Origin: an uncultured Bacteroidales bacterium
Lineage (GTDB): Bacteria > Bacteroidota > Bacteroidia > Bacteroidales > Paludibacteraceae
Assembly (NCBI GenBank): GCA_903911085.1
Contig: CAIWCC010000039.1
Location: 1-64,000 of the forward strand
DNA length: 64,000 nucleotides
Reading direction: 5' to 3'
Part shown: positions 2,483 through 60,763 of the stretch, piece after piece
Layout: each line of letters opens with the position of its first letter
Numbering within the stretch: position 1 is the first letter of the stretch
The notes under the pieces: model-generated
What the model was told of the DNA's origin: nothing
Database searches by the model: none
The model's input: the letters and a program-made list of their open reading frames with translations, nothing else
Translations under genes and position numbers: made by a program

Positions 2483-3682
2483 TCAAGTTGATTTAATTTG
2501 ATTTGCTATTTCTTTTGGTTTAACCATAAAAGCGCAAAACAGCAGATAAATAGCACTAAACAGAATAATCAATATTGAGCCTACCTGAGAGCCCAAGGCA
2601 TCGGAAGTCAGACCCATAATGAATGGAATGATCGCACCACCAAAAACACCTGTAATCATTAAACCAGAGATTTCATTGGCTTTATCCGGCCGAGATTGTA
2701 TAGCCATTGAAAAAATGATGGAGAATACATTGGCAATAGAAAAACCGATAATAGCAAATAATACAAAAACTGAAACATTATCTATTATAAATAACAAAGT
2801 TACTAATGCCAAAACTGCAACTACAGTAATGATTTTGAAAAACAAGGTTGATGAAAATTTGACCAACAGAATTGCACCTATAAAAGCACCGACAGTACGA
2901 AATGCAAAATACATACTTGGCCCATATCCGGCATCAATAGAGTTCATACCACAACGTTCCATTAAAATTTTGGGGGCTGCAGTATTTAAACCTACATCAA
3001 CACCTACCACGAAAATAATTCCTAAGAATAACAGTAAAATCGTTTTATCTTTAAGCAAGCCGAATACGTTTCTAAAAGAACTAGCTTTGCTAATAATTTG
3101 CTCCTCTTTAATTGGAGTTGCCATTAGCCAAATGGTTGAAATTACAGTAACGACAGCATAAATAGGGAATATATATTGCCAGTTCCCAAAATATGATACT
3201 GAAAAAGCCGCAATAAAAGGCCCACAGAAGGATGAATTCGCTTTTACAAACTGCCCTGCAGTAAGACTTGATGTCAATTTATCGCCTTTAACAACATTTG
3301 TCAATAATGGATTTAACGATACTTGCAAAATCGTATTTGAAATTCCCAATAATGCAAATGCCAGTAATGACATAAAGAAAGTATATTTTATTAATGGAAT
3401 AAACATAGCCACAATGGTGATTATATTACTTAAAAGAACAGTTCTTTTGCGTCCTATTTTATTCATCAACATTCCTGTGGGAATGGAAAAAATAAGAAAC
3501 ATCGAAAATAAAACTACAGGAATCATATTTGATAGCGTATCTCTGAATGCAGGACTGAAATCCCCCAATAAATCTTCTTTAACGTGCATGGATGTAATTC
3601 CCACTATATCAGCAAATCCCATAATAAAGAAGCCGAACATTACGGGTAGTACATTGAAAGAAGTTGAATTTGTGTTTTTCAT
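2483..3682 (-). CDS. MFS transporter (fucose-permease-like)
   Basis: This 399-aa integral membrane protein has about 12 hydrophobic segments and the MFS loop motif between TM2 and TM3, here GMLMNKIGRKRTVLL at about residues 71-85. Its overall pattern resembles FucP-type sugar:H+ symporters of the FHS family. It is the last gene of a tight minus-strand operon, starting 14 nt after the stop of a UroD-family methyltransferase. The inferred role is uptake of the methylated substrate handled by the upstream corrinoid enzymes, or export of a demethylated product. The substrate is not shown by the sequence, and the sugar assignment is family-level only. Confidence 0.8.
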   Translation of the reverse strand: MKNTNSTSFNVLPVMFGFFIMGFADIVGITSMHVKEDLLGDFSPAFRDTLSNMIPVVLFSMFLIFSIPTGMLMNKIGRKRTVLLSNIITIVAMFIPLIKYTFFMSLLAFALLGISNTILQVSLNPLLTNVVKGDKLTSSLTAGQFVKANSSFCGPFIAAFSVSYFGNWQYIFPIYAVVTVISTIWLMATPIKEEQIISKASSFRNVFGLLKDKTILLLFLGIIFVVGVDVGLNTAAPKILMERCGMNSIDAGYGPSMYFAFRTVGAFIGAILLVKFSSTLFFKIITVVAVLALVTLLFIIDNVSVFVLFAIIGFSIANVFSIIFSMAIQSRPDKANEISGLMITGVFGGAIIPFIMGLTSDALGSQVGSILIILFSAIYLLFCAFMVKPKEIANQIKST

Positions 3683-3696
3683 ATTGTTTAAAAAAT

Positions 3697-4737
3697 TTAT
3701 TGCCGGATATTTGTATGTGGCTGATTTATTTTTTTTTGTGCATTGTATTCATCCAATGCTTCATAAAATGCTCTTATATTTTCGGCGGGTACATGAGGTG
3801 GTACATCGCAGCCGGTAGAAAGAACAAAATTATCATACGTAGATGTGCGCTTTAATAAATTTGCAGTAAAGAGTTTTATTTGTTCGGGAGATTTATTTTT
3901 CATAACACCAACTGGATCAATATTACCCATAATTAACTTATTTTTAGGGCATATTTCTAAAGTTTCTACTATGTCAATTGCATTACCAAAGTGAAAAGCT
4001 CCTGCACCCGTATTTAACATCGCCTCAGTGCAGTGACCCTTATTTCCACAGTTGTGAAGTACTACTAAAAAGTTATCGTCTTGAACTTCATCAACTATGC
4101 GTTTAACATAAGTAGATGAGAATTCCTGACAATCCTCATTTGACAATAGACCGGCAGCTGGTTCTGCTATAACTACACCGGAACATCCAATTTTTTTTAG
4201 CTCTATACAATACTTAAGAATAAATTTTGTGCATTTATCAAGTAATATAGAAATTGCATCCGGTTCGACATAACAGGCAATCATTATTTCCGACAAGTCA
4301 AAAAGCCTGCCTGCCAATGAAAAGGGTCCTATCACACCTGCAAACACAGGTTTGTCTTGTACAAACTCTACAGTTAAACGATTTGCTTTCAGATATTCAG
4401 GAATTCTACAAACCGATAAATCAGGCACTTGCAATTTTTCAATATCTTCCTCACCGCTAACTAACCTCCCTAAAATATGTGGCATGTCGTTTTCGGGAAA
4501 CTCAATTTGACAACCAAATGCTTCTGCCTCAACTGTCAAATCCATAATGACAGTTGTTGCAGCTGAAGGATAAACTTCGCACATTTTTTTGATGGCTTTG
4601 GCATGTATTTCTCCATCTGTAACGGCATCTTTTACTTTTTTTCCTATCATTTCAATACCCGGATGAGTCATTATAGGTATTGCAATTCTTATATGACCAT
4701 CAATCTGTTGATTTGTCCAAGTCTTAATATTTCTCAT
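3697..4737 (-). CDS. UroD-fold corrinoid methyltransferase (MtaA/MtbA-like)
   Basis: This 346-aa protein belongs to the uroporphyrinogen-decarboxylase superfamily branch that moves methyl groups to or from corrinoids (MtaA, MtbA, CmuA). The zinc site typical of MtaA is complete: H228-x-C230 in VLHNCGNKG and C310 in LSTGCDVPP, matching the His-x-Cys...Cys ligand set that activates a thiol or other acceptor. In haem-synthesis HemE these residues are absent. It stands fourth in an operon with a second UroD-fold enzyme, a B12-binding protein and a MetH-activation protein. I infer it is the methylcobalamin:acceptor enzyme (MT2). The acceptor could be tetrahydrofolate or a thiol. Coenzyme M is not expected in this group. 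Confidence 0.8.
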   Translation of the reverse strand: MRNIKTWTNQQIDGHIRIAIPIMTHPGIEMIGKKVKDAVTDGEIHAKAIKKMCEVYPSAATTVIMDLTVEAEAFGCQIEFPENDMPHILGRLVSGEEDIEKLQVPDLSVCRIPEYLKANRLTVEFVQDKPVFAGVIGPFSLAGRLFDLSEIMIACYVEPDAISILLDKCTKFILKYCIELKKIGCSGVVIAEPAAGLLSNEDCQEFSSTYVKRIVDEVQDDNFLVVLHNCGNKGHCTEAMLNTGAGAFHFGNAIDIVETLEICPKNKLIMGNIDPVGVMKNKSPEQIKLFTANLLKRTSTYDNFVLSTGCDVPPHVPAENIRAFYEALDEYNAQKKINQPHTNIRQ

Positions 4738-4755
4738 CGCCTTTTCTAATTAGTT

Positions 4756-5448
4756 TTATTTTAAAATTACTTTTAGTTGATTCATTGGCTTTCTACGAAA
4801 ACAATCTTTTTTCTTACAGACATTGCAACTATATACTTTTTCTTTTACTGACTCACCAATACCAATTATACCGCTGATGGATTTGATTGGATACATCAAA
4901 GAACTTTCAGTAATTGTAATATTGCATACTCTCAAAGGCAACAAAGAGAAAAGTTTCACTTGCTCTATTAAATGCCAATCGCAATAGCCTGGACTGAAAC
5001 GATTTGTGTGTTTTAAATTTCCAATTTCTTTTTCGAGTTGTAATTCAAGAAAATCGCCTGCCTTTTCGGCAATACAAGTTCCAATTGAATCAACTATAAA
5101 TATCTCAATCCATTCATTCTTTTTTCGTATCTCAGCATTCCACAATTCAAATTCATGTCCTGCAGTTGCTACAAAACAAGCATATTGAGAGGAATTTTTT
5201 AATAATCTGGCAATTGTACCTCCCACATTTAGACATACATCTTCAATATCAATTTTATTTAAAACCAATTGACCAAATATTTTTCTATAATAATATGATG
5301 GCTTTACCCTGACAGAAGCTACTTTCATCAACTCTTGAGTTTGTAACACAATTTCCAACTCAGGAACATTCCCTTTGTAACCCATTGCTTCATAAATGTC
5401 AGCAAGAGTTATGTTAAGCTCAGAAAACGGTATTTCGATTTCATTCAT
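4756..5448 (-). CDS. MetH activation-domain-like protein (corrinoid reactivation)
   Basis: This 230-aa protein resembles the C-terminal SAM-binding activation domain of cobalamin-dependent methionine synthase. RFSPGYCDW at about residues 152-160 matches the RxSPGY motif that contacts SAM, and PIKSISGIIGIG at about 187-198 matches the KSVS..G region. A cysteine-rich tail, CNVCKKKDCFRRK, follows and could bind a metal or iron-sulfur cluster. It is a stand-alone domain, not part of a MetH. Six nucleotides separate it from the B12-binding gene. The likely job is reductive SAM-dependent rescue of oxidised cob(II)alamin on that partner, replacing the ATP-dependent RACo proteins used in many anaerobes. 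No electron donor gene is nearby. Confidence 0.8.
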   Translation of the reverse strand: MNEIEIPFSELNITLADIYEAMGYKGNVPELEIVLQTQELMKVASVRVKPSYYYRKIFGQLVLNKIDIEDVCLNVGGTIARLLKNSSQYACFVATAGHEFELWNAEIRKKNEWIEIFIVDSIGTCIAEKAGDFLELQLEKEIGNLKHTNRFSPGYCDWHLIEQVKLFSLLPLRVCNITITESSLMYPIKSISGIIGIGESVKEKVYSCNVCKKKDCFRRKPMNQLKVILK

Positions 5449-5454
5449 TTTTAA

Positions 5455-6090
5455 TCAGGCTAGTAGAAGACGAGCCAAAGCTACTGCTGCATTTGCGTTG
5501 TCGCTATAACCATCGGCTCCAATCTGATCAGCATACGCCTGACTTACAGGAGCACCACCAACCATTATTTTCACTTTATTTCGTAATCCGGCAACTTCAA
5601 GAGCACTAATAACTTCTTTCATATAGTTCATGGTTGTTGTCAAGAGTGCTGACATACAAATTATATCAGGATTATGCTCTTTTATTGCCTCTACGAATTT
5701 TTCACCAGAGACGTTTACTCCTAAATTAATCACATCAAATCCACAACCTTCAAACATGGACGATACTAAATTCTTTCCAATATCATGAAGATCACCTTCA
5801 ACTGTACCAATTACAATTTTACCCATTGGTTTAATATCTCCATTTTTAAGTAAAGGTTTGATTAAATCGAGAGAACCTTTCATCGCGCGCGCACTCATGA
5901 GTAAATTAGGAACAAAAGCTTTTCCTGTTTCAAATCGGGCACCAATCTCTTCCATTGCCTTTATCATATAATTGTCAATTATTTCCTGAGGTTTTATATT
6001 ACCTTCAGCTATCGCTTCCTTAGTTGTTGATACTGCCAGATTCAGATTTCCGCCTAAGACTGCATCATAAAGATTTTGTAAGTTTGCCAT
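5455..6090 (-). CDS. Corrinoid protein with B12-binding domain (MtaC/MtbC-like)
   Basis: This 211-aa protein has two parts. Residues about 1-85 form the helical cap domain of methyltransferase corrinoid proteins. Residues about 90-211 form the Rossmann-like B12 domain with the base-off signature D100-L-H102-D-I-G105, in which H102 is the lower cobalt ligand, followed by an MSALLTTTM region and VGGAPVS. The length is typical of MtaC, MtbC and MttC proteins. It lies between a UroD-fold methyltransferase (25 nt upstream) and the MetH-activation protein (6 nt downstream), so it should be the shared methyl carrier of the system. Confidence 0.92.
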   Translation of the reverse strand: MANLQNLYDAVLGGNLNLAVSTTKEAIAEGNIKPQEIIDNYMIKAMEEIGARFETGKAFVPNLLMSARAMKGSLDLIKPLLKNGDIKPMGKIVIGTVEGDLHDIGKNLVSSMFEGCGFDVINLGVNVSGEKFVEAIKEHNPDIICMSALLTTTMNYMKEVISALEVAGLRNKVKIMVGGAPVSQAYADQIGADGYSDNANAAVALARLLLA

Positions 6091-6115
6091 ATTAGTTATG
6101 TTAAAAATAATTTTA

Positions 6116-7171
6116 TTAAATATTTGATTTTTCTCTTCGTCTTATTTCATTTACTGCATCAATCATAGCTTTGAATCCTTCAACTGACGCATATTCCGGA
6201 ATTGAATTTCCTGACCCTAACCCGTATCCTTTTGCCATTTGTCGATACATTCTTCCTTCTTCCAAAACCTGAGCATAAACAGTGTCGTAGGAATTTAAAA
6301 TAAGATCATTCATATCAAAACCACCAAACAATCCTATGCGGTCGTTGTATTGCTCTATCCAGCGGGTGAATGGAGCAATAGATTTTTCATTGGAATGCTT
6401 CGCATCAATACCAATACCAATCAAATCATCCATCACATCAAAAATACAACCGCAACTATGCAATAAAAACTTTTTGCCACCATTATGTACAATATCAACC
6501 ACACGTTTGTACTGAGGAATTATGTGTTGGCGAATAATTTCGGGATCCAGCAGGGTATTTGTATGAAATCCTAAATCGTCGCCCATACGAAAAAACACGA
6601 AAATATCTGAATAACGATTAACCATATCTGTCCAAAGTTCTTCGTACAAATCACCTATTTTTTTAAAAATATCAGCAAAAAGTTCAGGATCATCGTATTG
6701 CATAATACAAAGCGATGTGTATCCTACTAAATCTTGTGCAGACTCAAAAATTCCATATCCACAACCACCGAAAGCTTTCATACCTACTGGCATAACCTTG
6801 CGTATAGCTTCCAGATGCGAAATATAAGTTGTCCAAAATAATCGTGGCAGATCATCAAACGGATATTTCTCAAAGTCTTCCCGATTCTGAATAGGTCCAT
6901 CTCCTCCCAAAATAGCTCCATGTCCGGGAAATATTTCACAAACTGCAGCTTCGTAATCAAACGCATCATATCCATTTTGAGCCCAAAATCCTGTTATTTT
7001 ACGATAATATTCTTCTAAATCTGATAGATTATTTGAGATTAATTCTAACTTTTCACCAAGGTATTTCGAAATAAACGGTGCATCGATATGATGTTCATAA
7101 AGTGGCAAATAATCTGGCCGTTGATTGTGTAGCACTTTTAATATATTTGTATAATCTGGTTGTTGATTCAT
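6116..7171 (-). CDS. UroD-fold methyltransferase, candidate substrate enzyme
   Basis: This 351-aa UroD-superfamily protein is clearly related to methylcobalamin methyltransferases. It keeps H238-x-C240 in LLHSCGCIFD, but the region matching the third zinc ligand reads GLGSGNSIPEY with no cysteine, unlike the 346-aa paralogue in the same operon. It is the first gene, before the corrinoid protein. By analogy with two-methyltransferase systems I infer it takes the methyl group from the growth substrate to the corrinoid (MT1). The substrate is unknown; UroD-fold members act on varied methyl donors including methyl halides and O- or N-methyl compounds. The ATG at 7171 has no obvious upstream promoter match. 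Confidence 0.75.
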   Translation of the reverse strand: MNQQPDYTNILKVLHNQRPDYLPLYEHHIDAPFISKYLGEKLELISNNLSDLEEYYRKITGFWAQNGYDAFDYEAAVCEIFPGHGAILGGDGPIQNREDFEKYPFDDLPRLFWTTYISHLEAIRKVMPVGMKAFGGCGYGIFESAQDLVGYTSLCIMQYDDPELFADIFKKIGDLYEELWTDMVNRYSDIFVFFRMGDDLGFHTNTLLDPEIIRQHIIPQYKRVVDIVHNGGKKFLLHSCGCIFDVMDDLIGIGIDAKHSNEKSIAPFTRWIEQYNDRIGLFGGFDMNDLILNSYDTVYAQVLEEGRMYRQMAKGYGLGSGNSIPEYASVEGFKAMIDAVNEIRRREKSNI

Positions 7172-7731
7172 AATAAATTTTGATTGTATATTATTATATT
7201 TGAAAGTATTTAAATAATTATAATAAAACCTGATTAATGGGATTTATTGAAAATTAATTAACTCAATTGAATTATTTAAACATCCCTGTTTTTCTATTTT
7301 TTTTTCTGTAGTCTTTACAATGCTTTATAACAATTGGCGGAATTTTTGAATTTCTCTCACCATTGATCAATAATTCAATGAAATATTTACCTGCCTCATA
7401 ACATGTTAACAAATTATTTGAAATAACCTGAGCTAATCATCGTTTTTTATCCAAATGTATTATAAATAAAAATGTTACATTTTTCTAGTCCGATAATGGT
7501 ATTGTGATTAGTAGCATTTACAAATATCTGTACTTTGAGTTTTACAGTATCTTTTTAGGTAGTCGTGTTTCATGGAGAACGGAATAACAAGCTGAAAAGA
7601 TTGGATACTTTTAATATTTGTAAACTAAAGTTGTAAGCCAATCCTTGATTTAATTCAAATTCGTTGTTAGTAATTTCATTATCAGAGTATACTGGATTCA
7701 AATAAACAATTACTAATATAATTAGATTTGA
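7172..7731. other. Intergenic region with a regulator remnant
   Basis: Apart from the regulator fragment at 7272-7436, nothing recognisable is present. The minus frame stays open for about 53 codons beyond the esterase stop (7570-7731), which looks like chance. Confidence 0.5.
7272..7436 (-). pseudogene. C-terminal remnant of a LacI/GntR-type sensor regulator
   Basis: A frame of 54 codons ends at the TAA 7274-7272 and is bounded upstream by an in-frame TGA at 7439-7437. It reads AQVISNNLLTCYEAGKYF then IELLINGERNSKIPPIVIKH. This is the pattern of the last two helices and strand of periplasmic-binding-like sensor domains in LacI-type regulators. No DNA-binding part or start is present. It lies directly upstream of the corrinoid operon and downstream of the glycan locus, so the lost regulator may once have controlled one of them. 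Confidence 0.55.
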
Positions 7732-8604
7732 TTATTTGCATATTGAATTCAACCAGCTTGAAAGTTCATCTTCAAAAATTTTCAAATATGGGAAACTCTG
7801 ACGATTACCAAACCCATGGCCACCATTGGTATAAATATGCATTGTTACGGAGATATTATTACGTTGCAATTCTTGATAATAATTTATACTGTTGGTTTGA
7901 TTTACAATTGGATCGTCTGAAGTTAGCATTAGAAAAGCAGGAGGTGTATCGTGTGTTACATTTAGTTCATTAGAATAATAATTAATTTCATCTTGTGTTG
8001 GATTCTCTCCTAACAATTGTTTTCGTGAACCTTCGTGCGTAATTCCATTTTTCATCGAAATAACAGGATAGATTAGAATCTGAAAATCTGGACGTGTATC
8101 TTTTGAGTAGTGTACCGCAATTGTTGAAGCTAAGTGACCACCAGCTGAGAAACCCATCACACCTATCTTCTTCGTGTTGATATTCCATTTCCCAGCATTT
8201 ATTTTTAAAATCCGCATGGCTTGTTCTGCGTCTTCCATTGGGATTTTGCAATGCCCATTGGGCATGCGATATTTTAAGACTGCCACTGTGATCCCAGAGT
8301 TATTAAACCAGTTTGCCCAATCACAACCTTCTTGACCCATAGATACTATGAAATATCCACCTCCAGGAAAAATTAAAACTGTTGTTCCGTTAGGATGCTC
8401 AGGATGATAAACTGTCAGTGTGGGAATTGTAACGTTAGCAATTCTACCTTCGGTCAATTTTTTTTCTTCAGTTGTAATACCACTTTCTGTTGGTACTCCC
8501 TTAGGCCAAAGTAAAATTATTTCCTGTTTTGGAACTTTGGTTTGTGCAAGAGCTATTGAACACATTGAAAAGAAAAGAAAAGTAAGAAGTTGTGTTTTTT
8601 TCAT
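7732..8604 (-). CDS. Secreted alpha/beta-hydrolase, acetyl-esterase type
   Basis: Starting at the ATG 8604, the protein is 290 aa and begins with a clean signal peptide (MKKTQLLTFLFFSMCSIALAQ). An upstream ATG at 8643 would add 13 residues that spoil it. The fold is the BD-FAE / acetylxylan-esterase branch: oxyanion motif FPGGGYF, nucleophile elbow GFSAGGH with Ser, acid Asp in TSDDPIV and His in NGGHGF. These enzymes remove acetyl or feruloyl groups from glycans outside the cytoplasm. It is the last gene of the glycan locus, now separated from the GH2 gene by an IS110-family insertion. The ester it cleaves is not determined. Confidence 0.85.
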   Translation of the reverse strand: MKKTQLLTFLFFSMCSIALAQTKVPKQEIILLWPKGVPTESGITTEEKKLTEGRIANVTIPTLTVYHPEHPNGTTVLIFPGGGYFIVSMGQEGCDWANWFNNSGITVAVLKYRMPNGHCKIPMEDAEQAMRILKINAGKWNINTKKIGVMGFSAGGHLASTIAVHYSKDTRPDFQILIYPVISMKNGITHEGSRKQLLGENPTQDEINYYSNELNVTHDTPPAFLMLTSDDPIVNQTNSINYYQELQRNNISVTMHIYTNGGHGFGNRQSFPYLKIFEDELSSWLNSICK

Positions 8605-8885
8605 ACGTAAATTATCTATTAATATCGAGGCAAAACGCCTCATTTTTATTTAAATATCAGTATTATATTATTTTACAAACAAAAGAAGAGAGAGCACTTG
8701 TCTCAAGGTAAATGCTACAATTGGCTTTTTGGGATATAAACAGCTAAGTGTTATAAAAATTTCATACACGTATTCTAATCACTCTCTTGGGTACTTAGCT
8801 GTTGAGGTCAGTTTCATTTTCGACTTCAATGTTGTTCGCAAACAACGGGTGTCAGAAAAAATCGACCTTTGTATTGTTCATTGTA

Positions 8886-10143
8886 TTAACTTGCCTTTAC
8901 GATAGGTGGCAGTTCCTTTAATTCAACGGCATATCCTAATTCGCTTTTCAGATAGGCTTTGCGTTTAGCTTCAGTTCTACTTATCAAATATTCTGCTCCA
9001 AGTTCTTTAAACTCACATTTATCATTCAAGATATGATAGACAGACTTCAGGATCGAATGTCCTACTGCTATTAAGGCTCTTTTTTTGCCTCGTCGGGCTG
9101 CCAGTTTTTAGTATCTTTCTCGATAAAATGTTTTCTTGGTTCTTGTTGCTGCCCAAGCAATTTCGGTAAGTACTGCTTTTACTTGCTTGCTTGTTTCCTT
9201 GTGTGGTACTTCCGCTTTTTTTTTACCGGCACTCTCGTTGTTTCCAGGTGCCATGCCAGCCCACGAAGCCAAATGTTTTTCGGTGGTAAAAACGCTCATG
9301 TCCAAATCAATTTCCGCAACCAAGTCCTCGACTCTCTTAGAGCTAATTCCTGGTACTTTTTTCAGTAGTTCCAATGCATTGTCGTAATGTGATAAGACTA
9401 ATTATATGTGCTTGCTCAGACTTTCAATGGTCTGCTCGGTGTCCGCAATTTCTTTGCGAATAAGCTGAAACAAATGCACATGGTGTTCGGTAATAAATCC
9501 CTGACAAGCTTAGTAAATTTCCGCCTTACTTGCCTCTAACTTTTTGTGATAAACTTCCTCTATATCCTGCATGGTTACTTCCATGCAATCGCAGAGCTTG
9601 TTAATCAGCTTTGTACCTACAGCTCCAGAGGTTGAACTTAATACACTCGACAACTTTATATTGGCATCTTTCAAAATACGGATAATCCGATTTTTGTTCG
9701 ATGCATTACTTTGTATCAAAGTGGTTCGGTATCGTGTTAAATCACGTATTTCCCGTTGCCCTTTCGCTGGTATGTAACTTGGCTTTAAAAGTCCAGCTAG
9801 TAACAACTTGCAAACCCATGCACTGTCTTTTTTGTCTGTCTTATGACCCGGAACATATTTAACGTGAGCGGCATTCACAATCTAAACTGTTAGTCCTGCA
9901 TGCTCCAGTATGTTATAAACCGGTTTCCAAAAATACGCCGGTACTTTCCATGGCTACATGACTGATGCCATGTTCCAATAACCAATCTCTCAATTCTTTC
10001 AAAGAACTCGTGACGGTGGAAAACTCGCGTGTTTGCTTTTTTATTCCTTCACCGTCGATGGTAGCTACAACTACCTTCTTGTGTACATCAAGTCCGCATC
10101 CACGTGATACGACTTGCTTAAATGATACTTGAGATGCTTCCCT
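8886..10143 (-). pseudogene. IS110-family transposase, inactivated
   Basis: The frame shows an IS110-type DEDD N-terminal domain (GLDVHKKVVVATIDG, MESTGV, HVKYVPGHKTDKKDS) and the C-terminal transposase_20 domain (LLKKVPGIS...ASWAGMAPGNNES...KKAEV). It is broken by a start codon changed to AGG at 10143-10141, a one-base T-run insertion near 9925, and four in-frame stops at about 9879, 9510, 9400 and 9108. It ends at the TAA 8888-8886. Each stop stands where glutamine would fit, as TAA for CAA or TAG for CAG. An orphan left end at 13222-13384 retains the ATG, which fixes the original start. It cannot make a working transposase. Confidence 0.9.
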
Positions 10144-13518: not shown

Positions 13519-15726
13519 TTACTCCTTAAAATATGTTGTCCATCTTGTAGACATTATCTTTCTTGCATTATTTCCAACATTGGGAAGGTTCGACAGTGGT
13601 GTGAAATCATAATTTCCCTTCACATTACAAGTGTAAAACCGTATTGAATTATCACTTAACAAAAAAGCAACTTCATCTACATAATCTAAGTTGGCATCAA
13701 CGCATTTCACATCTTTTATGGTAACAGGGATTATATCAATGGATTTGGTAATATCTATAGATGATACAGAACCATTCATTTCTCCTTTTATTTGAACTTG
13801 ATTATTGTTTGTTTTTGTGACAATAAGCAAATTGTCTAATGACCTTGTATTATCAACATATAATATATTTTGAGTTCTCATTCCCAACAATTGTATAAAA
13901 TCACTAGAATGGATTGTACCAAATCGTGAGTTAATTTGAGTTGTCAATAAATCATCTACAGCATAAGAAAAATTTTGACATGTTGCTCCATTGTTTACAA
14001 ATACTTTTTCATACACCGTAAATTTGATATTGGTTCCGTTTGATCGTGCGACAACTATTTCATCCGGATCACCGAAAAAAGTGTTGGTTTTTCCAGCATA
14101 ATTTCTTTTTAAATTTAACGCTGTTAAGCCAACAAAATTACCGTCGGTAGTAGTTGATACTAAATTATCGCATTTAGTATAATAAGTGCTCATATAGTTG
14201 TAGAACTCAGCCGAAAGTTGTCCTGCTTTTGACTTTACAACAAGAATTTCATCAATCATTTTGAAATCAACTTTCACCCGAGTTGCATCTATAACAGAAC
14301 CTGAAAAAACCCAGTCTCTGTAACGATTCTCATTGTTATTATACCATGTACCTATGTTACTATTATATGTGTCAAAGATTTTAACTTTATCACCAAAAAC
14401 AGTAATCGTACTTTGGTTGTAGGTTTTAGGCTTTTCTGTCCATTTGTTATTCATCATTTGCGATCTATCATTTACATAATAATCGGCAGGATTCATTGAA
14501 GGGTAAGAGGAAGGGCTTTTATCGTAATTGAGCAATATATCAACAAACCGTTTCAATATAAGTCTCCCTGTATAATCAGGAGTTTGCTCATATTGACCAA
14601 CTCTATTTGTCGTCTGTTCAGCGGGATTATAAAAATTAAACAAATAAAATGAAGGCTCAAATTGAACAAGATTTCCTCCTCGCCTGAATGTTTCTAAAGT
14701 GAATGCAGCCATCAATTCAATAGGCATGTTAAGATAAGCATCGGAATACCATCTGATACTTCCATCGCTCCACATAGGAAGTGATTGATTATCTTTCTCA
14801 GACCACCACCAACTTTGAACACTATAACCCCATTTGTTATTGCTTCTAAAATTGGCCATTGTACGAGAGTATTGCAAAGCGATAATTTCAGATCCCCAAC
14901 CATTATTATTAAAATCAATGGTAAGTGTACTGTCCAATATATCACAGGCCTTTTCTAAGTTTGGAAGCCACATCCCATAATTCGTTGGATCTGTATAAGC
15001 CATATTCCAATCGTGGTCACCCCAAACCAGTTTTTTATTATATTTTTTGCAAATAGAAGCAATCTCAGTTGTAAGTGTTAAGTCAACGGCAAACCCATGT
15101 CCATTATCTTTTTGTGCATTGCTTCCCAGAAGTTCATGAAAACGAACTCCTTTCACTACATCATACTTGGCAAAAATATCTTCCAAACAGTCAAGATCTA
15201 TTGGTAAACTTTTTATTGTTTCCGGCTTTAGATATCTTCTTTTCACAAGTGGTTGAGTTCCTAATTCTCCATTTTGGTTTGTGTAAATGCCCGATGAATA
15301 TATTTCTAAATAGATACCTATGTTTTTTGATTTAAAATAATTAAATGTATGAAGTAAAGCAGGATCAATACGATTAATCCCAATTGCAGGTGAACCTTGC
15401 CCATAACCACTTTCTTTATAAAGCCATGTCGGATATATAAGAACTGACACATTGTATTTTGACTGCAAAGGTGAAATTCCATTATAAATATTCTCGAGTG
15501 CATTATCTAGTAAATTCAAATTATCCTTATATTTGGCTACAAGCTCACCCCCTTTTATTCCTTCATCGACTTCGAACATTAACTCTTTTTCTCCCGTAAT
15601 AGTAGTAACAGGTGGAATAACAGGTGGAATAATTGGTTCGACAGGTTTACATGCTGAGAATGTCAGATATAATAATGTTAGTATTACCATGTTATATTTT
15701 ATTAAATATTGATTCTTAGTTTTCAT
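13519..15726 (-). CDS. Lipoprotein of the glycan locus, putative glycosidase
   Basis: This 735-aa protein begins with a lipoprotein signal ending LTFSAC (Cys26), followed by a proline-rich linker with a PVIPP repeat, so it should be membrane-anchored. Residues about 50-430 show alternating strand and helix motifs (NVSVLIYPTWLY, GIYLEIYSSG, VVKGVRFHELLG, KLVWGDHDWN, WGYSVQSWWWS) that suggest a TIM-barrel glycosidase with acidic and aromatic residues at strand ends. The C-terminal 300 residues look beta-rich. I do not recognise a CAZy family. It starts 11 nt inside the end of the GH35 gene, so the two are translationally coupled. Confidence 0.6.
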   Translation of the reverse strand: MKTKNQYLIKYNMVILTLLYLTFSACKPVEPIIPPVIPPVTTITGEKELMFEVDEGIKGGELVAKYKDNLNLLDNALENIYNGISPLQSKYNVSVLIYPTWLYKESGYGQGSPAIGINRIDPALLHTFNYFKSKNIGIYLEIYSSGIYTNQNGELGTQPLVKRRYLKPETIKSLPIDLDCLEDIFAKYDVVKGVRFHELLGSNAQKDNGHGFAVDLTLTTEIASICKKYNKKLVWGDHDWNMAYTDPTNYGMWLPNLEKACDILDSTLTIDFNNNGWGSEIIALQYSRTMANFRSNNKWGYSVQSWWWSEKDNQSLPMWSDGSIRWYSDAYLNMPIELMAAFTLETFRRGGNLVQFEPSFYLFNFYNPAEQTTNRVGQYEQTPDYTGRLILKRFVDILLNYDKSPSSYPSMNPADYYVNDRSQMMNNKWTEKPKTYNQSTITVFGDKVKIFDTYNSNIGTWYNNNENRYRDWVFSGSVIDATRVKVDFKMIDEILVVKSKAGQLSAEFYNYMSTYYTKCDNLVSTTTDGNFVGLTALNLKRNYAGKTNTFFGDPDEIVVARSNGTNIKFTVYEKVFVNNGATCQNFSYAVDDLLTTQINSRFGTIHSSDFIQLLGMRTQNILYVDNTRSLDNLLIVTKTNNNQVQIKGEMNGSVSSIDITKSIDIIPVTIKDVKCVDANLDYVDEVAFLLSDNSIRFYTCNVKGNYDFTPLSNLPNVGNNARKIMSTRWTTYFKE

Positions 15727-51834: not shown

Positions 51835-53124
51835 TTAGTATCTAAACCTGTCTTTAAAAGCCCACAAACCCAATGCTGGATTAGAAATATAGAAGACTTC
51901 TTCACCATCTAGCATTGTATTATAACCATCTTTTAATTTTTCTGGATCATATTTTGCCGTAACTTCGTCAATATCGGCATATTTGAAACCTACACTTTCA
52001 ATTTCATTTTGAGTTAGATTCTCGGAGCCTTTTCCAGGACAATAAGTAATACTGAATCGACCTTCGGACGAACCATGTATAAGATGAGCTGCCGCACTTA
52101 AATTGTTGCGTAGTTCTTCATTTTCGTCGCAGGCTTTTAATGTTTTACCTGTTCCAAAGTAACCGTATTTTCGTATTAAACGATCAATTTCCTTGTCTTC
52201 GCCAAACTCTTTTAATGCTGGAGCTATAACTATCAACTCACCATCATCGTCAATTGCCATGCGAGTTCGGTAAATTGATTTATTTCCAAGCCATGTGCTT
52301 TTAAATTCAGTAGGGTCGAGGTAAACAACTACTTTTTTTAACGGTTTGTCTAATAAATCAAAGTTTACTTGTAATGCAAGTTTGGCAGCTTTTGTAAAAA
52401 CTTCAAAGTCATCGCCAATAAATAATCCACGGCATTTAATTTTGCCATCTGTTTTGTCGAGCCCAACTACCGTTTGAACGTAAACAATAGGCAAATTGTT
52501 TGTAAAATTGTCGGAAGCATAATTAAAAATTCGTCGTACAGGTGTATCAGCATGTCCCATCATTCGTTCCATGCCGTAAGCAGCACCTACAAAATGACTT
52601 TTATTGATTCCTTCTACGCCACCTGTACCCACAAAAATATTCTTGTTGTAATTGGCCATTCCCACAACTTCGTGAGGAACAACCTGACCAAGAGAAAGAA
52701 TTAAATCAAAACCACCATCAATTAACAATTTATTTACTTGAGCAGGCCATGGAAATTCTACAGCGCCACCCGAAACCTCTTTTACAAATTCGGCAGGAAC
52801 AATTCCAACTGTAACAACATCGTTTCGCCAATCATGTTCACGAATTAATGACGCAGGCAAAGTGCCAAACATGTGCTCAATTTGATGTGGTGTCATTGGC
52901 GAATGTGTTCCTAATGCGGGAAGCACATCGGTCAAAGTATCTTCGTAAAATTGCCAAGCAAATTCAGTAAGTTCACCAGCACGACTAGGTAAGCGAGTGT
53001 AATCAGGTGGAATAGCAAGTACTTTTTGTTTTTTGCCAATTTTTTCTAATGCTTCAAAAAGTCCTTTTTTGAGATCATCGGAAGTGAATTCGGTGCTAAT
53101 TGAGCCATTTTCGTAGTAGATCAT
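51835..53124 (-). CDS. LarA-type nickel-pincer racemase/epimerase homologue
   Basis: This 429-aa protein belongs to the lactate racemase LarA (DUF2088) superfamily. LarA of Lactobacillus uses H174, K184 (covalent nickel-pincer nucleotide) and H200. Here H151, K161 and H177 occur with the same spacing of 10 and 16 in VVPHEVVGMANYNK and NKSHF, and H74 in GTHSPM plus DYTR at 41-44 complete the site. The operon context (mannonate, altronate, fructuronate enzymes) suggests a C2-epimerase or racemase of a sugar acid rather than lactate. Cofactor genes larB, larC and larE are not in the window. Confidence 0.85.
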   Translation of the reverse strand: MIYYENGSISTEFTSDDLKKGLFEALEKIGKKQKVLAIPPDYTRLPSRAGELTEFAWQFYEDTLTDVLPALGTHSPMTPHQIEHMFGTLPASLIREHDWRNDVVTVGIVPAEFVKEVSGGAVEFPWPAQVNKLLIDGGFDLILSLGQVVPHEVVGMANYNKNIFVGTGGVEGINKSHFVGAAYGMERMMGHADTPVRRIFNYASDNFTNNLPIVYVQTVVGLDKTDGKIKCRGLFIGDDFEVFTKAAKLALQVNFDLLDKPLKKVVVYLDPTEFKSTWLGNKSIYRTRMAIDDDGELIVIAPALKEFGEDKEIDRLIRKYGYFGTGKTLKACDENEELRNNLSAAAHLIHGSSEGRFSITYCPGKGSENLTQNEIESVGFKYADIDEVTAKYDPEKLKDGYNTMLDGEEVFYISNPALGLWAFKDRFRY

Positions 53125-53148
53125 AATTTATATTTACAATTTATTTAT

Positions 53149-53240
53149 CGACCATTCACTATTTAATACCATTAAATTTTAATACCATTTTATATACTAT
53201 CTCATTATTTTAATGGTAACTAGTAAATTATAAAATGGTA
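53149..53240. repeat. ATACCATT repeat cluster in LarA leader
   Basis: TACCATTTTATA (53181-53192) is perfectly inverted at TATAAAATGGTA (53229-53240). TTTAATACCATT occurs twice in direct repeat (53163-53174 and 53177-53188), and AATGGTAA occurs twice on the other side. It fills the 123-bp gap between the kinase stop and the LarA-like start. Confidence 0.55.
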
Positions 53241-53247
53241 AATGATT

Positions 53248-54324
53248 TTATCGTTTCACTCTTGCATTACCGCCCCAAATAGACCAAATCATTTCTTCAT
53301 CAGCGGGTTGAGCGTAGTCGGTTAAGAATGTTGTTGCGAGTGCACCCGAAGCCCATCCAAATTGAGCCCAAGTTTCCGGTTCCCAGCCTTTTAGAATTGC
53401 ATAAAGCATACCGCCAACAAATCCATCGCCACCACCAATTCTGTCAAGAACATTTATTTTGCGAGGTTGAATTACATGCCATTCATCACCATCGAGCATA
53501 ATTGCACCCCAAAGATGTTCGTTGGTGCTTATTACTTGTCGTAGCGTTGTAGCATATACTGATGCATTTGGAAATGTTGCTTTTACACGACCAATCATTC
53601 CTTTGAACCCATCAATTTCAGATTCAATACCTTTTCCACCAGCTTCAGGTCCTTTAATTCCCAAGCAAAGTTGGAAGTCTTCTTCATTGCCAATTAAAAT
53701 GTCGGCAACAGAAGCAATTTCGGTAAATATTTCACGTAATTCATTGTCACGACCTTTCCAAAATGAAGCGCGGTAATTAAGATCGAATGAGATACGTGTT
53801 CCTGTTTTCTTCGCATAACGTGCTAATTGAAGGCAGAATTCACTAGTTTCGGGTGACAATGCACCAATTAAGCCCGAAAGGTGAAGAATTTGAACTCCAT
53901 CTTGAACAAAAATTCGTTCCAAATCAAAGTCTTTAACGTTTAATGTTCGTCCCACCTCACCAGCACGATCGTTGAGAACTCGCGGCCCGCGAGTTCCAAA
54001 CCCGCTATCGGCAATGTTAAACTGATGACGGTAACCCCATGGGTCACCCTGAGGTACTTCTACACCTTCATAATCCATATTGCGACTTCGCAAATCGCTT
54101 TTAATCATTTGTGCAATAGGACTATCTTTTACAAAAGTAGTTAGCACTTTTACAGGAAGTCCGAGGTAAGATGAAATTGAAGCAACATTAGTTTCTGCAC
54201 TTGAAACTTCCATTTGAAATAATTTACTGCTGTGAACAGGTTGTCCATTTGCAGGTGTAATACGTACTCCCATACTGGTTGCAACCATTAAGGCGTATTT
54301 TGTGTCTTTTTTTAGTGTAATCAT
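53248..54324 (-). CDS. kdgK: PfkB family sugar kinase, probable 2-keto-3-deoxygluconate kinase
   Basis: This 358-aa ribokinase-fold protein has the C-terminal PfkB signature DRIGGGDGFVGGMLYAI with the catalytic Asp and anion hole, and substrate-contact regions GLIGALSPET and FDLNYRASFWKGR, the latter typical of KDG kinases. It follows uxuA, whose product is 2-keto-3-deoxygluconate, so phosphorylation to KDPG is the natural next step. The KDPG aldolase is not in the window. The gene name rests on context plus family. Confidence 0.85.
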   Translation of the reverse strand: MITLKKDTKYALMVATSMGVRITPANGQPVHSSKLFQMEVSSAETNVASISSYLGLPVKVLTTFVKDSPIAQMIKSDLRSRNMDYEGVEVPQGDPWGYRHQFNIADSGFGTRGPRVLNDRAGEVGRTLNVKDFDLERIFVQDGVQILHLSGLIGALSPETSEFCLQLARYAKKTGTRISFDLNYRASFWKGRDNELREIFTEIASVADILIGNEEDFQLCLGIKGPEAGGKGIESEIDGFKGMIGRVKATFPNASVYATTLRQVISTNEHLWGAIMLDGDEWHVIQPRKINVLDRIGGGDGFVGGMLYAILKGWEPETWAQFGWASGALATTFLTDYAQPADEEMIWSIWGGNARVKR

Positions 54325-54344
54325 GATATTAGATTTTAAGGTAC

Positions 54345-54433
54345 CCTAAATCCCACTTAGGGATTTTAAAGACCAAGTTTATTGAAAAAAAATCAGATAA
54401 TCAGTCATTAATTCACTTGCGTGGGATTTTAGG
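54345..54433. repeat. Inverted repeat pair between kdgK and uxuA
   Basis: CCTAAATCCCAC (54345-54356) faces GTGGGATTTTAGG (54421-54433) with a one-base indel. A local hairpin AAATCCC-ACTTA-GGGATTT lies at the left arm. It is similar in layout to the 55624-55766 element. Confidence 0.55.
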
Positions 54434-54441
54434 AACTACTT

Positions 54442-55611
54442 TTAAAATAGCGTTTTCGAAATACCCATTTCCAGGCCTCTGAGTTCAGCTAAGCCACGTA
54501 AACGGCCAATTGCCGAGTAACCTGGATTGGTGTTTTTGTGTAAATCGTCGAGCATTTGATGTCCATGATCGGGACGAACAGGAATTCGACGTTTGTGTGT
54601 ATATTGCACAACAAGTAATGCTTTCATTGCTTCATACATATCCACATCACCTTCTAAATGGTTATCTTCGTAAAAATCGCCATCTTCGTTACGACGGGTA
54701 CTACGGAAATGCACAAAATACAAACGATCGCCAAATTCGTGTAACATTGAAGTTAAGTCATTCTCACACGATACACCAAACGAACCAGTACACAAACATA
54801 AACCATTCGATTTGCTTGGTACAGCTTTAAATAACTTACGAACATCATCTGCATTACTCAAAATACGAGGTAATCCAAGAATTGAACGTGGAGGATCATC
54901 TGGGTGAATTGCCATCTGCACACCTTCTTCTTCGGCAATAAGGCTTATTTCATTGATAAAATAAATCAAGTTATTGCGAAGTTCTACTGCAGTAATTTCT
55001 TTATATGAATCCAGAGCTGCCTGAAATTGTTCAATAGTAAAACTCTCCTCAGCTCCAGGCAAACCTGCAATCATGTTTCTAACTAATAGTTCTTTATCAT
55101 CTTCACTCATACCGTCGAAACGGTTTTTTGCTTTTGAAATCTGTTCTACTGTATAGTCTTTCTCTGCTCCAGGACGTTTCAGAATGTATAAATCGAACGC
55201 TACAAAAGCAGCCATTTCGAAGCGCAAGGCACGCGATCGGTCAGGCAATTGATAAGCTAAGTCGGTACGTGTCCAGTCCAAAATCGGCATAAAGTTATAC
55301 GTTACAGTACGAATGTCGCAAGCAGCTAAATTACGTATTGTTTGTTTGTAATTTTCGATATACTGCTTGTAATTTCCAGTACGTTTTTTGATGTCTTCGT
55401 GTACTGGAACACTTTCTACTACCGACCAAGTTAAACCTACTTCGGAAATTTTTCGTTTACGATATTGTATAGCTTCAAGCGGCCATACTTCGCCATTTGG
55501 AATTTGGTGTAAAGCAGTTACAATATCTGTTGCACCGGCTTGACGAATGTCCCATAATGATACTGGGTCATTTGGACCATACCATCTCCATGATTGTTTG
55601 CATAAAAACAT
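54442..55611 (-). CDS. uxuA: Mannonate dehydratase
   Basis: This 389-aa TIM-barrel protein is UxuA: it starts with [36 protein letters not shown] by pattern, and holds [43 protein letters not shown] and FVHFRSTRR, which supply metal and substrate ligands. It dehydrates D-mannonate to 2-keto-3-deoxygluconate in glucuronate breakdown. It lies between an SDR oxidoreductase and a kinase of the same pathway, in gaps occupied by small palindromic elements. Confidence 0.97.
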
Positions 55612-55623
55612 AATCTTAATAAG

Positions 55624-55766
55624 ACCCCTAACCCCTAAAGGGGAATGAAATTAGTTCATTCTCCAAAGGATTATTAGAGGGATTTTTCTAAATAAATATT
55701 TAATTAATACCTTAATTTTTAATACTCTAATTCCACTCGAATTATTCCCCTTTAGGGCTTAGGAGT
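55624..55766. repeat. MITE-like inverted repeat pair with REP core
   Basis: The left arm (55624-55646) and right arm (55744-55766) are imperfect inverses of each other, each ending in a copy of the core CCCCTAAAGGGG or its near match CCCCTTTAGGG. They flank about 100 AT-rich bases in the gap between the SDR and uxuA genes. Confidence 0.6.
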
Positions 55767-55769
55767 GAA

Positions 55770-56579
55770 TTAAATACAGAATGCATCAAAACCACCATCA
55801 ATAACTGTTAGCGTACCTGTCACAAACTTTGAAGCGTCGCTTGACAACCAATGTAAAGTGCCGAACAATTCATCTGCTTCACCTAAACGACCGAATGGGG
55901 TATGAGCAACTATGGATTTTCCTCTTGGTGTTGGAGTACCATCGGGGTTTGTCATTAATGCGCGGTTTTGTTCCGTCAAAAAGAATCCTGGAGCCATTGC
56001 ATTTACTCTAATTTTTTCGCTGAACTTAGTTGCCATTTCAGTGGCAAGAAATTTTGTAAAGTTAGTAACAGCAGCTTTTGAAGCTCCATAACCTACAACT
56101 CGAGTAAGTGGACGAATGGCAGATTCAGATGAAATATTAATAATACTTCCTTCTTTTTGATCCACCATAATTTTTCCAAACACCATACATGGTAATACTG
56201 TTCCAAACAAGTTTAAATCAACAACTTTTTCGAAAGCATCAATTTGTAGGTCGAAAATTGTTTGGTCGGGACCAATAGTTGCACCAGCCATATTTCCGCC
56301 AGCAGCATTCACTAAAATATCAATTCTACCAAAAGTAGCAACAATATCTTTTGCATTTTGTTCCAAAGCTTCTTTTTCAAGCACATTGGTGTTCAAATAC
56401 AACGCTTCGCCGCCTTTTGCTTTGATTTCTTCGCACAATTCTACACCAGCATCGGCTCTGTCTAAAACTACAACTTTACAACCTTGTTCGGCCATATATA
56501 GTGCCATTCCTTTGCCAAGAATTCCGGCACCTCCAGTGATTACTATCACTTTACCTTTTACATCAAATAGGTTCTGCAT
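55770..56579 (-). CDS. SDR-family D-mannonate oxidoreductase (fructuronate reductase)
   Basis: This 269-aa short-chain dehydrogenase has the cofactor motif TGGAGILGKGMA, NAAGGN, Ser in INISSES and YGASKAA with catalytic Tyr and Lys. In Bacteroidetes and Firmicutes uronate operons, an SDR of this type replaces the long-chain UxuB and reduces D-fructuronate to D-mannonate. Placement directly before uxuA supports this. The start is 34 nt after the uxaA stop at 56613. Confidence 0.9.
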   Translation of the reverse strand: MQNLFDVKGKVIVITGGAGILGKGMALYMAEQGCKVVVLDRADAGVELCEEIKAKGGEALYLNTNVLEKEALEQNAKDIVATFGRIDILVNAAGGNMAGATIGPDQTIFDLQIDAFEKVVDLNLFGTVLPCMVFGKIMVDQKEGSIINISSESAIRPLTRVVGYGASKAAVTNFTKFLATEMATKFSEKIRVNAMAPGFFLTEQNRALMTNPDGTPTPRGKSIVAHTPFGRLGEADELFGTLHWLSSDASKFVTGTLTVIDGGFDAFCI

Positions 56580-56612
56580 AAATTTATAATATGATTATTA
56601 AAATATTTTTTA

Positions 56613-58097
56613 TTAAAGTGTTACACCAGTTTTGAAAATTGCAATTTCGCGATAATTTTTCTTTTCATTGTTAACTAGCTGACCGCTTGCTACTTGTATT
56701 ATGTAATCTACAAATCGCTCGTTTACTTGTTCAATTGTCTCATTTTCAAGTATTGTTCCAGCATTAAAATCAATCCAACCTGGTTTTTTGTTGAATAAAA
56801 GTGAATTGGTGGATATTTTCATTGTTGGAACAAAGCAGCCAAATGGAGTACCTCGCCCAGTAGTAAATAAAACCATTTGACAACCGCTTGAAGCTAATGC
56901 TGTGGCAGCAACTAAATCATTGCCAGGTGCGCTTAAAAGATTTAATCCTTTGTTTATCAATCGTTCACCATACAACAAAACATCTTTTACCAAAGATTTA
57001 CCACATTTTTGTGTGCAACCTAATGATTTTTCTTCCAATGTTGAAATTCCACCTGCTTTGTTACCGGGCGAAGGATTTTCGTAAATTGGTTGATTGTTTT
57101 GCTCAAAATAGTTTTTAAAATCATTGATTAACAAAACTGTTTTGTCAAAAATATTTTTGTTTACACAACGATTCATCAATATGGTTTCAGCTCCAAACAT
57201 TTCGGGTACTTCTGTAAGAATGGTGCTACCGCCTTGAGCAATTAAAAAATCGGAGAAAACACCTAAAAGTGGGTTGGCTGTAATTCCTGAAAAACCGTCT
57301 GAACCTCCACATTTTAATCCAATTTTTAGTTCAGAAATTGGCACGCTTATACGCTCATCTTTCGAAACAACGCCATAAATTTCACGCAACAGTTTCATTC
57401 CCATTTCATCTTCATCATCAACTTTTTGGGTTTCCATAAATTTAATGCGCGATTCGTCAACTTCTCCCAATAATTCGCGAAAACTATTTACTTGATTGTT
57501 CTCGCAACCTAAACCTACAATTAAAACACCACCTACATTAGGATGTAAAACCATGTTACGCAAAATTTTGCGTGTATTTTCGTGATCTTCACCTAATTGT
57601 GAGCAGCCGTAGTTATGAGGATAAGCCACAATTGCATCAACACCTTTGTTTTGTGTTTCGTTGCGGAGTTTTTCTGCTAACGAATTAATGGTGCCATTTA
57701 CGCAGCCAACAGTAGGTATTAACCAAATTTCATTTCTAATTCCAACATCACCATTTGAGCGTTTATAACCCATAAAAGAAAGGTTCTGTTGTGGAATATC
57801 TATCGAGACTTCGTGCGGATTGTATTCATATTCGAGCAATCCTTCGAGATTAGTTTTAATAGTTTTTTCATTAATCCAGTCGCCTTGCTCAATGTTTTCA
57901 CGTGCATGACCGATTGGATAACCATATTTAACAACATTTGAATTAGCAGAAATATTGGTCAATGCAAATTTATGTCCAGCCGGGATATTATTTTTTATTA
58001 ATACGTCAATTCCTTCTACATTAAGCACTTCGCCTTTCTCAATGTCATTCAAGGTTACAGCTACATTATCGGAATTATTTATTTTGATAAATTTCAT
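56613..58097 (-). CDS. uxaA: Altronate dehydratase
   Basis: This 494-aa protein has the two parts of UxaA: an N-terminal SAF domain (about 10-95, ending PIGHARENIEQGDWI) and the large catalytic domain with FMGYKRSNGDVGIRNEIWLIPTVGCVN by pattern, AYPHNYGCSQLGEDHENT, GLGCENNQ, GLKCGGSDGFSG and GNKAGGISTLEEKSLGC. It converts D-altronate to 2-keto-3-deoxygluconate in galacturonate breakdown and is iron dependent in E. coli. It follows uxaB by 54 nt. Confidence 0.96.
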   Translation of the reverse strand: MKFIKINNSDNVAVTLNDIEKGEVLNVEGIDVLIKNNIPAGHKFALTNISANSNVVKYGYPIGHARENIEQGDWINEKTIKTNLEGLLEYEYNPHEVSIDIPQQNLSFMGYKRSNGDVGIRNEIWLIPTVGCVNGTINSLAEKLRNETQNKGVDAIVAYPHNYGCSQLGEDHENTRKILRNMVLHPNVGGVLIVGLGCENNQVNSFRELLGEVDESRIKFMETQKVDDEDEMGMKLLREIYGVVSKDERISVPISELKIGLKCGGSDGFSGITANPLLGVFSDFLIAQGGSTILTEVPEMFGAETILMNRCVNKNIFDKTVLLINDFKNYFEQNNQPIYENPSPGNKAGGISTLEEKSLGCTQKCGKSLVKDVLLYGERLINKGLNLLSAPGNDLVAATALASSGCQMVLFTTGRGTPFGCFVPTMKISTNSLLFNKKPGWIDFNAGTILENETIEQVNERFVDYIIQVASGQLVNNEKKNYREIAIFKTGVTL

Positions 58098-58151
58098 TTG
58101 AGTAATTTCAGTATTTCAGATAAAAATTAAAATTCACTTCGATTTTTTTTA

Positions 58152-59591: not shown

Positions 59592-59669
59592 TTTTGATTG
59601 AAATGTGTATTTATGTTTAATAATTTAGTATTGCAAAAAAAATATTTGAAAATGAATTTAATATGTTTT

Positions 59670-60743: not shown

Positions 60744-60763
60744 ATTAAACTCAAAATGAACAT

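Follow-up and report, generated by a model that had tools for sequence, protein, structure and literature searches.

The first 64,000 nucleotides of contig CAIWCC010000039.1 (assembly GCA_903911085.1, an uncultured Bacteroidales bacterium of the family Paludibacteraceae), which is the stretch of DNA analyzed here and is referred to as the window, contain a five-gene operon, with genes called A to E below, for corrinoid-dependent methyl transfer. We consider the odds somewhat better than even, at roughly 55%, that the task of this operon is to O-demethylate a methylated sugar independently of oxygen, with the methyl group passing to a thiol. The proposal builds on what can be read from sequence and gene order, namely the protein families, the metal-site patterns, the joint occurrence of A, B, C and D in four genomes and the absence of the activator RACo from the three of these other than the host, a bacterium that is presumably anaerobic like the rest of its group. 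All five open reading frames (ORFs) lie on the minus strand, at positions 7171–6116 (A), 6090–5455 (B), 5448–4756 (C), 4737–3697 (D) and 3682–2483 (E), with intergenic gaps of 25, 6, 18 and 14 nucleotides from A to E, just as an earlier note on this DNA had placed them. That note had described a corrinoid methyltransferase operon, an assignment that the protein families and the carrier motif of B bear out.

Protein families and metal sites of the operon

Gene A encodes a protein of 351 amino acids that we assign to the UroD-fold substrate methyltransferases (MT1). It scores 55 bits on Pfam URO-D (cut-off 23.9) and 28 bits on the NCBIfam model mtaA_cmuA (cut-off 235), and its AlphaFold2 model, built from a 17-sequence alignment (pLDDT 92), returned UroD chains and MtaA as the top Foldseek matches, with the best TM values obtained for MtaA 4ay7 (0.75/0.77). 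The modeled protein thus has the predicted UroD fold of this MT1 superfamily, and the gene of a cognate corrinoid protein, B, stands beside it. A phmmer search of A against the PDB sequences, CdmB among them, matched no MT1 at E ≤ 10. The host falls near Paludibacter: the closest relatives of A in the named collection (84% identity) come from a Paludibacter jiangxiensis metagenome-assembled genome (MAG) and an uncultured Bacteroidales MAG, and in the tree the A of the window groups with these and with the host's own second copy of A.

Gene D, which is 75% identical to the MtaA of the host's methanol operon, encodes a second UroD-fold protein (346 amino acids; 197 bits on Pfam URO-D and 151 bits on mtaA_cmuA, cut-off 235). 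The earlier note had listed the two together as UroD-fold methyltransferases; the fold holds for both, but they are not equivalent. In a joint alignment, the positions of the zinc ligands of MtaA-type enzymes are occupied by His-Cys-Asn in A (predicted site His238, 6458–6460; Cys240, 6452–6454; Asn322, 6206–6208) and by His-Cys-Cys in D (predicted site His228, 4054–4056; Cys230, 4048–4050; Cys310, 3808–3810). Asn322 is kept in all 17 A sequences, that of the window included, in a family with many invariant polar residues, and the triad of D is invariant in 16/16 D proteins. In this fold, S-methyltransferases retain His-Cys-Cys, while O-methyltransferases have another residue for one or both cysteines (PMC10418091), so that, by analogy, A is likely an O-demethylating MT1 and D likely an MtaA-like, thiol-side second methyltransferase (MT2). 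Assignment to HemE-like decarboxylases, which the earlier note had named as fatal to its reading, was rejected for both proteins: A gave no hemE match at E ≤ 0.001 and D reached 84.9 bits on the hemE equivalog TIGR01464 (cut-off 303).

The carrier B (211 amino acids) matches Pfam B12-binding and B12-binding_2 with 113 and 72 bits as well as PDB 1y80, a "predicted cobalamin binding protein" (E 2.4e-58), and the histidine of its DLHDIG motif, His102 (5785–5787), is invariant in 19/19 aligned carriers. At one related locus, L173, the gene between B and C encodes a methyltransferase of the methyltetrahydrofolate:corrinoid type (252 bits, cut-off 259), which agrees with a role of D as the second methyltransferase and suggests that the methyl acceptor can differ between loci. 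Phylogenetically the operon is a mosaic. The B of the window groups with the carriers of related loci, in which A or another UroD gene accompanies B, C and D, and with that of L044 (98/98), its A falls among stand-alone A proteins from the window's own group (100/100), and its D goes with the methanol-operon MtaAs of its own genus plus one lone D of another family (100/100), which indicates that the same four roles were assembled from parts of different descent. In two genomes that share a genus, a D gene standing alone directly adjoins a gene in whose L197 copy fucose pyrophosphorylase and GHMP kinase domains were recognized (L197, 10073–12847; L198, 9816–12590).

Gene C encodes a stand-alone MetH-type activation protein of 230 amino acids that belongs to Pfam Met_synt_B12 (PF02965; 37.5 bits, cut-off 25), which supports the MetH-type activator suggested in the earlier note. 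It is related to PDB 1j6r (E 1.3e-6), presumably the free-standing Thermotoga protein TM0269, with which Glu128, Arg150 and Pro-Gly-Tyr155 align; Glu128, Arg150 and Tyr155 are putative S-adenosylmethionine-binding residues. When the C family was compared by hhalign with the MetH activation protein of the host (E 4.9e-6), Glu128 and Tyr155 aligned and Arg150 did not, and in the MAFFT alignment the MetH row is shifted, so the match of the arginine to MetH rests on motif spacing rather than on an alignment column. Among 21 homologues including that of the window, Glu128 is kept in 20, Arg150 in 15 and Tyr155 in 19. All 21 share four cysteines, one directly after Pro-Gly-Tyr (Cys156, 4981–4983) and three arranged as C-x2-C-x4-C near the C-terminus (Cys208, 4825–4827; Cys211, 4816–4818; Cys216, 4801–4803). 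The 1j6r protein has glycine at the first of these positions and its chain stops before the other three, and the four are likewise absent from the host's MetH activation protein in the alignment. A structure model of C computed without an alignment was useless (pLDDT 31).

Gene E encodes a permease of 399 amino acids, perhaps for a sugar, that the earlier note had called FucP-like. Membership in the major facilitator superfamily stands (Pfam MFS_1, 86 bits), while FucP is a family-level hint, the best NCBIfam match being gluP, at 43 bits far below its cut-off of 203. A host paralog (67%) lies between a ROK-family gene and a gene reading as SusC, and a relative (47%) occurs within one related cassette (L189). 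With relatives in 112 of 393 genomes at 1e-50, E is so common that by itself it says little.

In the proposed mechanism, E would import the methylated sugar, and A would bind it and offer its O-methyl group to B, with the corrinoid in the Co(I) state, yielding the free sugar and methyl-Co(III)-B. The substrate would be a sugar methyl ether, with O-methyl mannose as one candidate. D would then hand the corrinoid-bound methyl group on to a thiol, for which homocysteine or sulfide seems likeliest, and C would restore carriers oxidized to Co(II) as the MetH activation domain does, by reductive methylation with S-adenosylmethionine.

Conservation of the gene set and distribution of RACo

Conservation was assessed in 393 genomes from the host's order, with only the first few candidates scored in genomes that had many. 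A-like genes at E ≤ 1e-40 occur in 11 of these genomes and close A genes (E ≤ 1e-100) in nine; D-like genes at E ≤ 1e-20 occur in 48 and close D genes, with at least 47% identity, in 23. Close A and close D genes co-occur in four genomes, in every case no more than 10 kb apart, for which the chance product is about 1.8e-9, uncorrected for the fact that two of the four share one genus. The earlier note had asked whether the five genes keep together in other Bacteroidales: A, B, C and D do so in three further genomes (G413, G163 and G410), but E was not found alongside them in these three loci. In G413, D lies on the opposite strand, and the A and B genes of G163 and G410 are separated by a gene of about 895 codons (L151, 6894–9578; L153, 10266–12956). 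The L151 copy of this gene has no Pfam match and the L153 copy reads like a glycosidase-type TIM barrel. Two other genomes (G160 and G244) have a different UroD gene in the place of A beside B, C and D. The BLAST labels behind these neighborhood comparisons give the best query only, and weak UroD labels are approximate.

More broadly, a corrinoid-protein gene lies within 5 kb of A in five of the nine close-A genomes (G000, G163, G410, G413 and G287); among the other four, two A genes sit on contigs of about 5 kb. A B12-binding_2 match was found in 20/20 A-bearing genomes reached through the relatives of A in the named collection (the host and 19 others), in 19 of them in an ORF of fewer than 350 codons, and some of the longer ORFs may be regulators. 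At locus L147, a gene that joins a UroD-type N-terminal part to a histidine-kinase-type ATPase domain (6912–8396) overlaps a corrinoid-protein gene and directly precedes the A gene.

RACo was sought with PF14574, which detected the control in Methanosarcina acetivorans, and was found in 7 of 22 genomes (the host, G027, G042, G060, G062, G287 and G365). The other A-B-C-D genomes, all three with a completeness rating of 99%, lack it. It is also absent from the eight genomes with sister B-C-D cassettes other than G027, four of the eight being rated 85–89% complete and two (G013 and G025) having no recognized sugar gene in the stretch read; G027, which has RACo, carries a methanol operon in addition to its sister cassette. 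Thirteen A-bearing Bacteroidales genomes include ten with a stand-alone C (E ≤ 1e-60) and six with RACo, and G264 has neither. The claim that the operon is self-contained is only partly true of the host, in which one RACo gene stands beside the methanol-operon genes, though the three other A-B-C-D genomes have none.

All five C proteins whose genes adjoin a RACo-type gene lack Arg150, and 15 of the 16 others have it (Fisher p 0.0003, uncorrected for kinship, with four of the five from one methanol-operon group), a pattern behind which kinship may in part lie. In methanol operons RACo and C are adjacent, and together with a similar arrangement at L044 this shows that C is no simple substitute for RACo everywhere. 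In the host, contig C55 (L038) holds methanol-operon MtaC, MtaA and the start of MtaB, and on contig C250 (L039) CobW-type, RACo and C genes follow a fragment that looks like the remainder of MtaB; the set is whole in G002 and G027. In G244, C is fused behind a CobW-type GTPase (L189, 8274–9854), and the CobW-type genes found close to RACo and C in methanol operons as well give a hint of metal supply.

Carbohydrate context and rival explanations

The earlier note's guess of a methylated sugar gains strength from gene neighborhoods in other genomes. Of 31 D-bearing genomes, 10, which represent six families, have a gene of the RhaM family (rhamnose mutarotase) no more than 10 kb from D, where 0.32 would be expected, although five of the ten belong to the host's genus, the match in G054 is weak (4.7e-12) and the D of G041 is a fragment; B and C stand alongside in seven of the ten. 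In these sister cassettes D, mostly with B and C, adjoins UroD genes and RhaM- or RhaT-family genes, and some contain glycoside hydrolase (GH) genes, either GH29 fucosidase or GH31 alpha-xylosidase-like; their UroD proteins are of a His-Cys-His type (4/4 aligned). The G244 cassette has a GH38 gene and an E-like permease as neighbors, and in the part of host contig C203 that was examined UroD, RhaT, GH29, RhaM and UroD genes follow in a row with no B, C or D. A protein of 354–362 amino acids that recurs in the sugar cassettes (L048, 12878–13942; L052, 189–1277; L193, 6145–7209) has no Pfam match in L048 and L052 and no NCBIfam match in L048, to which the L193 copy is 71% identical; perhaps it is a further substrate methyltransferase.

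Around A itself, 14 Bacteroidales loci were considered (the window, L140, L017–L020 and L146–L153, with L017, L148 and L149 unscanned), and 8 of the 14 have, among the neighbors that were scanned, a carbohydrate-active gene by Pfam or NCBIfam within about 6 kb. GH92 genes lie within 5 kb of A in two of nine genomes (0.17 expected), and the A-B-C-D locus of G413 has GH92 and two GxGYxYP-type genes nearby. Mannose-type genes recur: GH92 adjoins A in L146, is one gene off in L150 and is 10.5 kb off in the window; a GH125 gene lies some 5 kb from the second A copy of the host (L140); GH130 occurs close to A in L020 and, in another A-bearing genome, close to a corrinoid gene (L168); and GH38 stands beside A in L025, as beside the G244 cassette. 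These neighbors are suggestive only, and mannose was not adopted as the sugar, the list having been made post hoc and GH92 occurring in 13/13 genomes tested. Methyl-xylose, considered from the XylA/XylB neighbors of L173, was weakened as a candidate by a xylulokinase-type gene beside the methanol MtaB cassette of G324. In three A-bearing genomes (L173, L214 and L215), such xylulokinase-type (FGGY) genes adjoin C-bearing loci or lie about 6 kb away from them, in one case beside MtaB.

Several observations weigh against a sugar O-demethylase. A close D is missing from five of the nine close-A genomes, and A occurs without B, C or D at several loci, the host's second copy among them. The carbohydrate genes near A are raw counts with no background rate, and of the three A-B-C-D loci outside the host, that of G413 alone has a Pfam-confirmed glycosidase close by; the scanned neighbors in G163 and G410 comprise a subtilase, a GDSL lipase and one family-less protein, with no glycosidase family. 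Since the xylulokinase-type gene of G324 stands beside a methanol-type MtaB, the corresponding neighbor at L173 is not specific evidence for a methyl sugar. As to activation, the host has its one RACo gene beside the separate methanol-operon genes, L150, itself an A-B-C-D locus, has serine in place of Arg150 in C, and another genome from the genus of the host, G018, has a RACo-type gene next to C and a B resembling that of the window (69%; L044), so that carriers of the clade of B can also go with RACo. Finally, loss of the third cysteine in A is also compatible with an enzyme for haloalkanes or aryl methyl ethers.

An O-demethylase for methoxylated, lignin-type aromatics like MtvABC, OdmABC or MtoABC would share with the operon a UroD-fold MT1 and a small corrinoid carrier, and such systems are described as using UroD-family MT1s (PMC13222342). 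We nevertheless hold it improbable, as A matched no MT1 among the PDB sequences, the tetrahydrofolate- or methanopterin-type MT2 and the ATP-dependent activator of the characterized systems are both missing from the operon, and the neighbors of A are carbohydrate-active in 8 of 14 loci. The same neighbors speak against methylthio or methylseleno substrates handled in the manner of the type 1 mlp clusters. The His-Cys-Cys site of the MtaA-like D does carry the signature of sulfur or selenium chemistry (PMC10418091), but the site of A is His-Cys-Asn, and the operon lacks the Ram/RACE gene that the authors of that study require in mlp clusters; this reading, too, we regard as unlikely, though no search aimed at sulfur or selenium genes around the operon was made.

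A methyl donor from plant or algal glycans other than a neutral methyl sugar, for instance 4-O-methylglucuronate or methanol, would suit the uronate catabolic set in the same window (51835–60782) and the 75% identity of D to the host's methanol-operon MtaA. The uronate set lies 44 kb away, however, and the host has separate methanol-operon genes (C55 and C250) and no MtaB in the operon, which leaves this a rather unlikely alternative. Least credible is a haloalkane dehalogenase-type methyltransferase like CdmB or MecE. It would come from the same fold family, in which CdmB, a haloalkane MT1, is active without zinc (PMC13222342), yet the many invariant polar residues of the A family and the carbohydrate-type neighbors make it highly improbable. 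The reading that we prefer remains an O-demethylase for a methylated sugar.

Relation to known systems and surroundings of the operon

Known components include MT1s of the UroD fold that act on aryl methyl ethers and haloalkanes, ATP-dependent activators, and MtaA (PMC13222342; PMC8630106; PMC10418091); a cassette for dichloromethane from this fold family has also been described (PMC9768040). The operon resembles MtvABC, OdmABC/VdmABC and MtoABCD in combining a UroD-fold MT1 that lacks the third metal-site cysteine, a small corrinoid carrier, a second methyltransferase and an activator; it differs in that its MT2 is MtaA-like rather than of the tetrahydrofolate type (pterin-binding fold), its activator is of the MetH and not the RACo type, its neighbors are of carbohydrate type and its A has no match to the solved members. 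With methanogen MtaABC and the host's methanol genes it shares the MtaA-like His-Cys-Cys protein D and a carrier of the same family, but A stands in the MT1 place instead of MtaB, which in the host's genus belongs to separate methanol operons, RACo is missing, and B is of another clade. The type 1 mlp clusters of Kountz and Balskus likewise place an MtaA-like protein outside methanogens beside a corrinoid protein (PMC10418091). Their definition calls for at least two MtaA-like proteins with >25% identity to a characterized one, compared here by mtaA_cmuA bits; A is not a close MtaA-like protein, and the operon lacks Ram/RACE. Split MetH systems with RamA-like activators have been described too, and in some bacteria PF02965 forms a protein of its own (PMC5764234). 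C is like the MetH activation domain and 1j6r in scoring above the PF02965 cut-off and in its aligned motif residues, and unlike them in standing beside a methyltransferase carrier rather than MetH, in its four invariant cysteines and in the CobW fusion of L189.

Methylated sugars occur in plant and algal material, as 2-O-methyl fucose in the pectic polysaccharide RG-II (PMC12282258) and as methylated mannose, xylose, arabinose and galactose in Chlorella N-glycans (PMC7383745). Marine Flavobacteriia demethylate 6-O-methyl-D-galactose oxidatively with a P450 (PMC10033563). The proposed task of the operon, to free a methylated sugar near glycan-degrading genes, would be similar; the P450 route is a monooxygenase reaction that yields formaldehyde, whereas the operon would transfer the methyl group to a corrinoid. 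A literature search limited to CC-licensed papers found no report of corrinoid methyltransferases for methylated sugars. The loci described here form a short list of candidate enzymes as well as a natural comparison of RACo-type with MetH-type activation inside one bacterial order. A wider idea, which we put forward tentatively and think possible rather than probable, is that anaerobic Bacteroidota have a modular B12 route in which the choice of sugar would lie with exchangeable UroD-fold MT1s, a common carrier and MtaA-like enzyme would deliver the methyl group to a thiol, and ATP-driven RACo would be replaced by a MetH-type activator with a four-cysteine site, possibly an iron-sulfur cluster that contributes its own electron. 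If true, this route would be the oxygen-free counterpart of the P450 route and would turn glycan methyl groups into methionine or methanethiol.

Upstream of the operon, a gap of 560 bp (7172–7731) separates A from a minus-strand gene for a carbohydrate-esterase-like alpha/beta hydrolase (7732–8643; Pfam and NCBIfam). No cobalamin riboswitch exceeded the Rfam gathering score in positions 1–32000 of the window, which include this gap. A glycan locus on the minus strand follows at 10360–31167, with a GH2 GalB gene, a 735-amino-acid protein, GH35 and GH92 genes and then SusD-, SusC-, FecR- and sigma-factor-like genes, the last four named from their translations with no family search. The 735-amino-acid protein (13519–15726) has no Pfam or NCBIfam match at E ≤ 0.001. 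The operon is flanked by an RteC-family gene (1260–2126) on one side and by IS110-type transposase fragments (9108–9878) on the other, possibly scars of mobile elements. The uronate catabolic set at 51835–60782 comprises genes for a nickel-dependent putative hexonate epimerase, a mannonate dehydratase, a mannonate oxidoreductase, a tagaturonate reductase and a LacI-type regulator.

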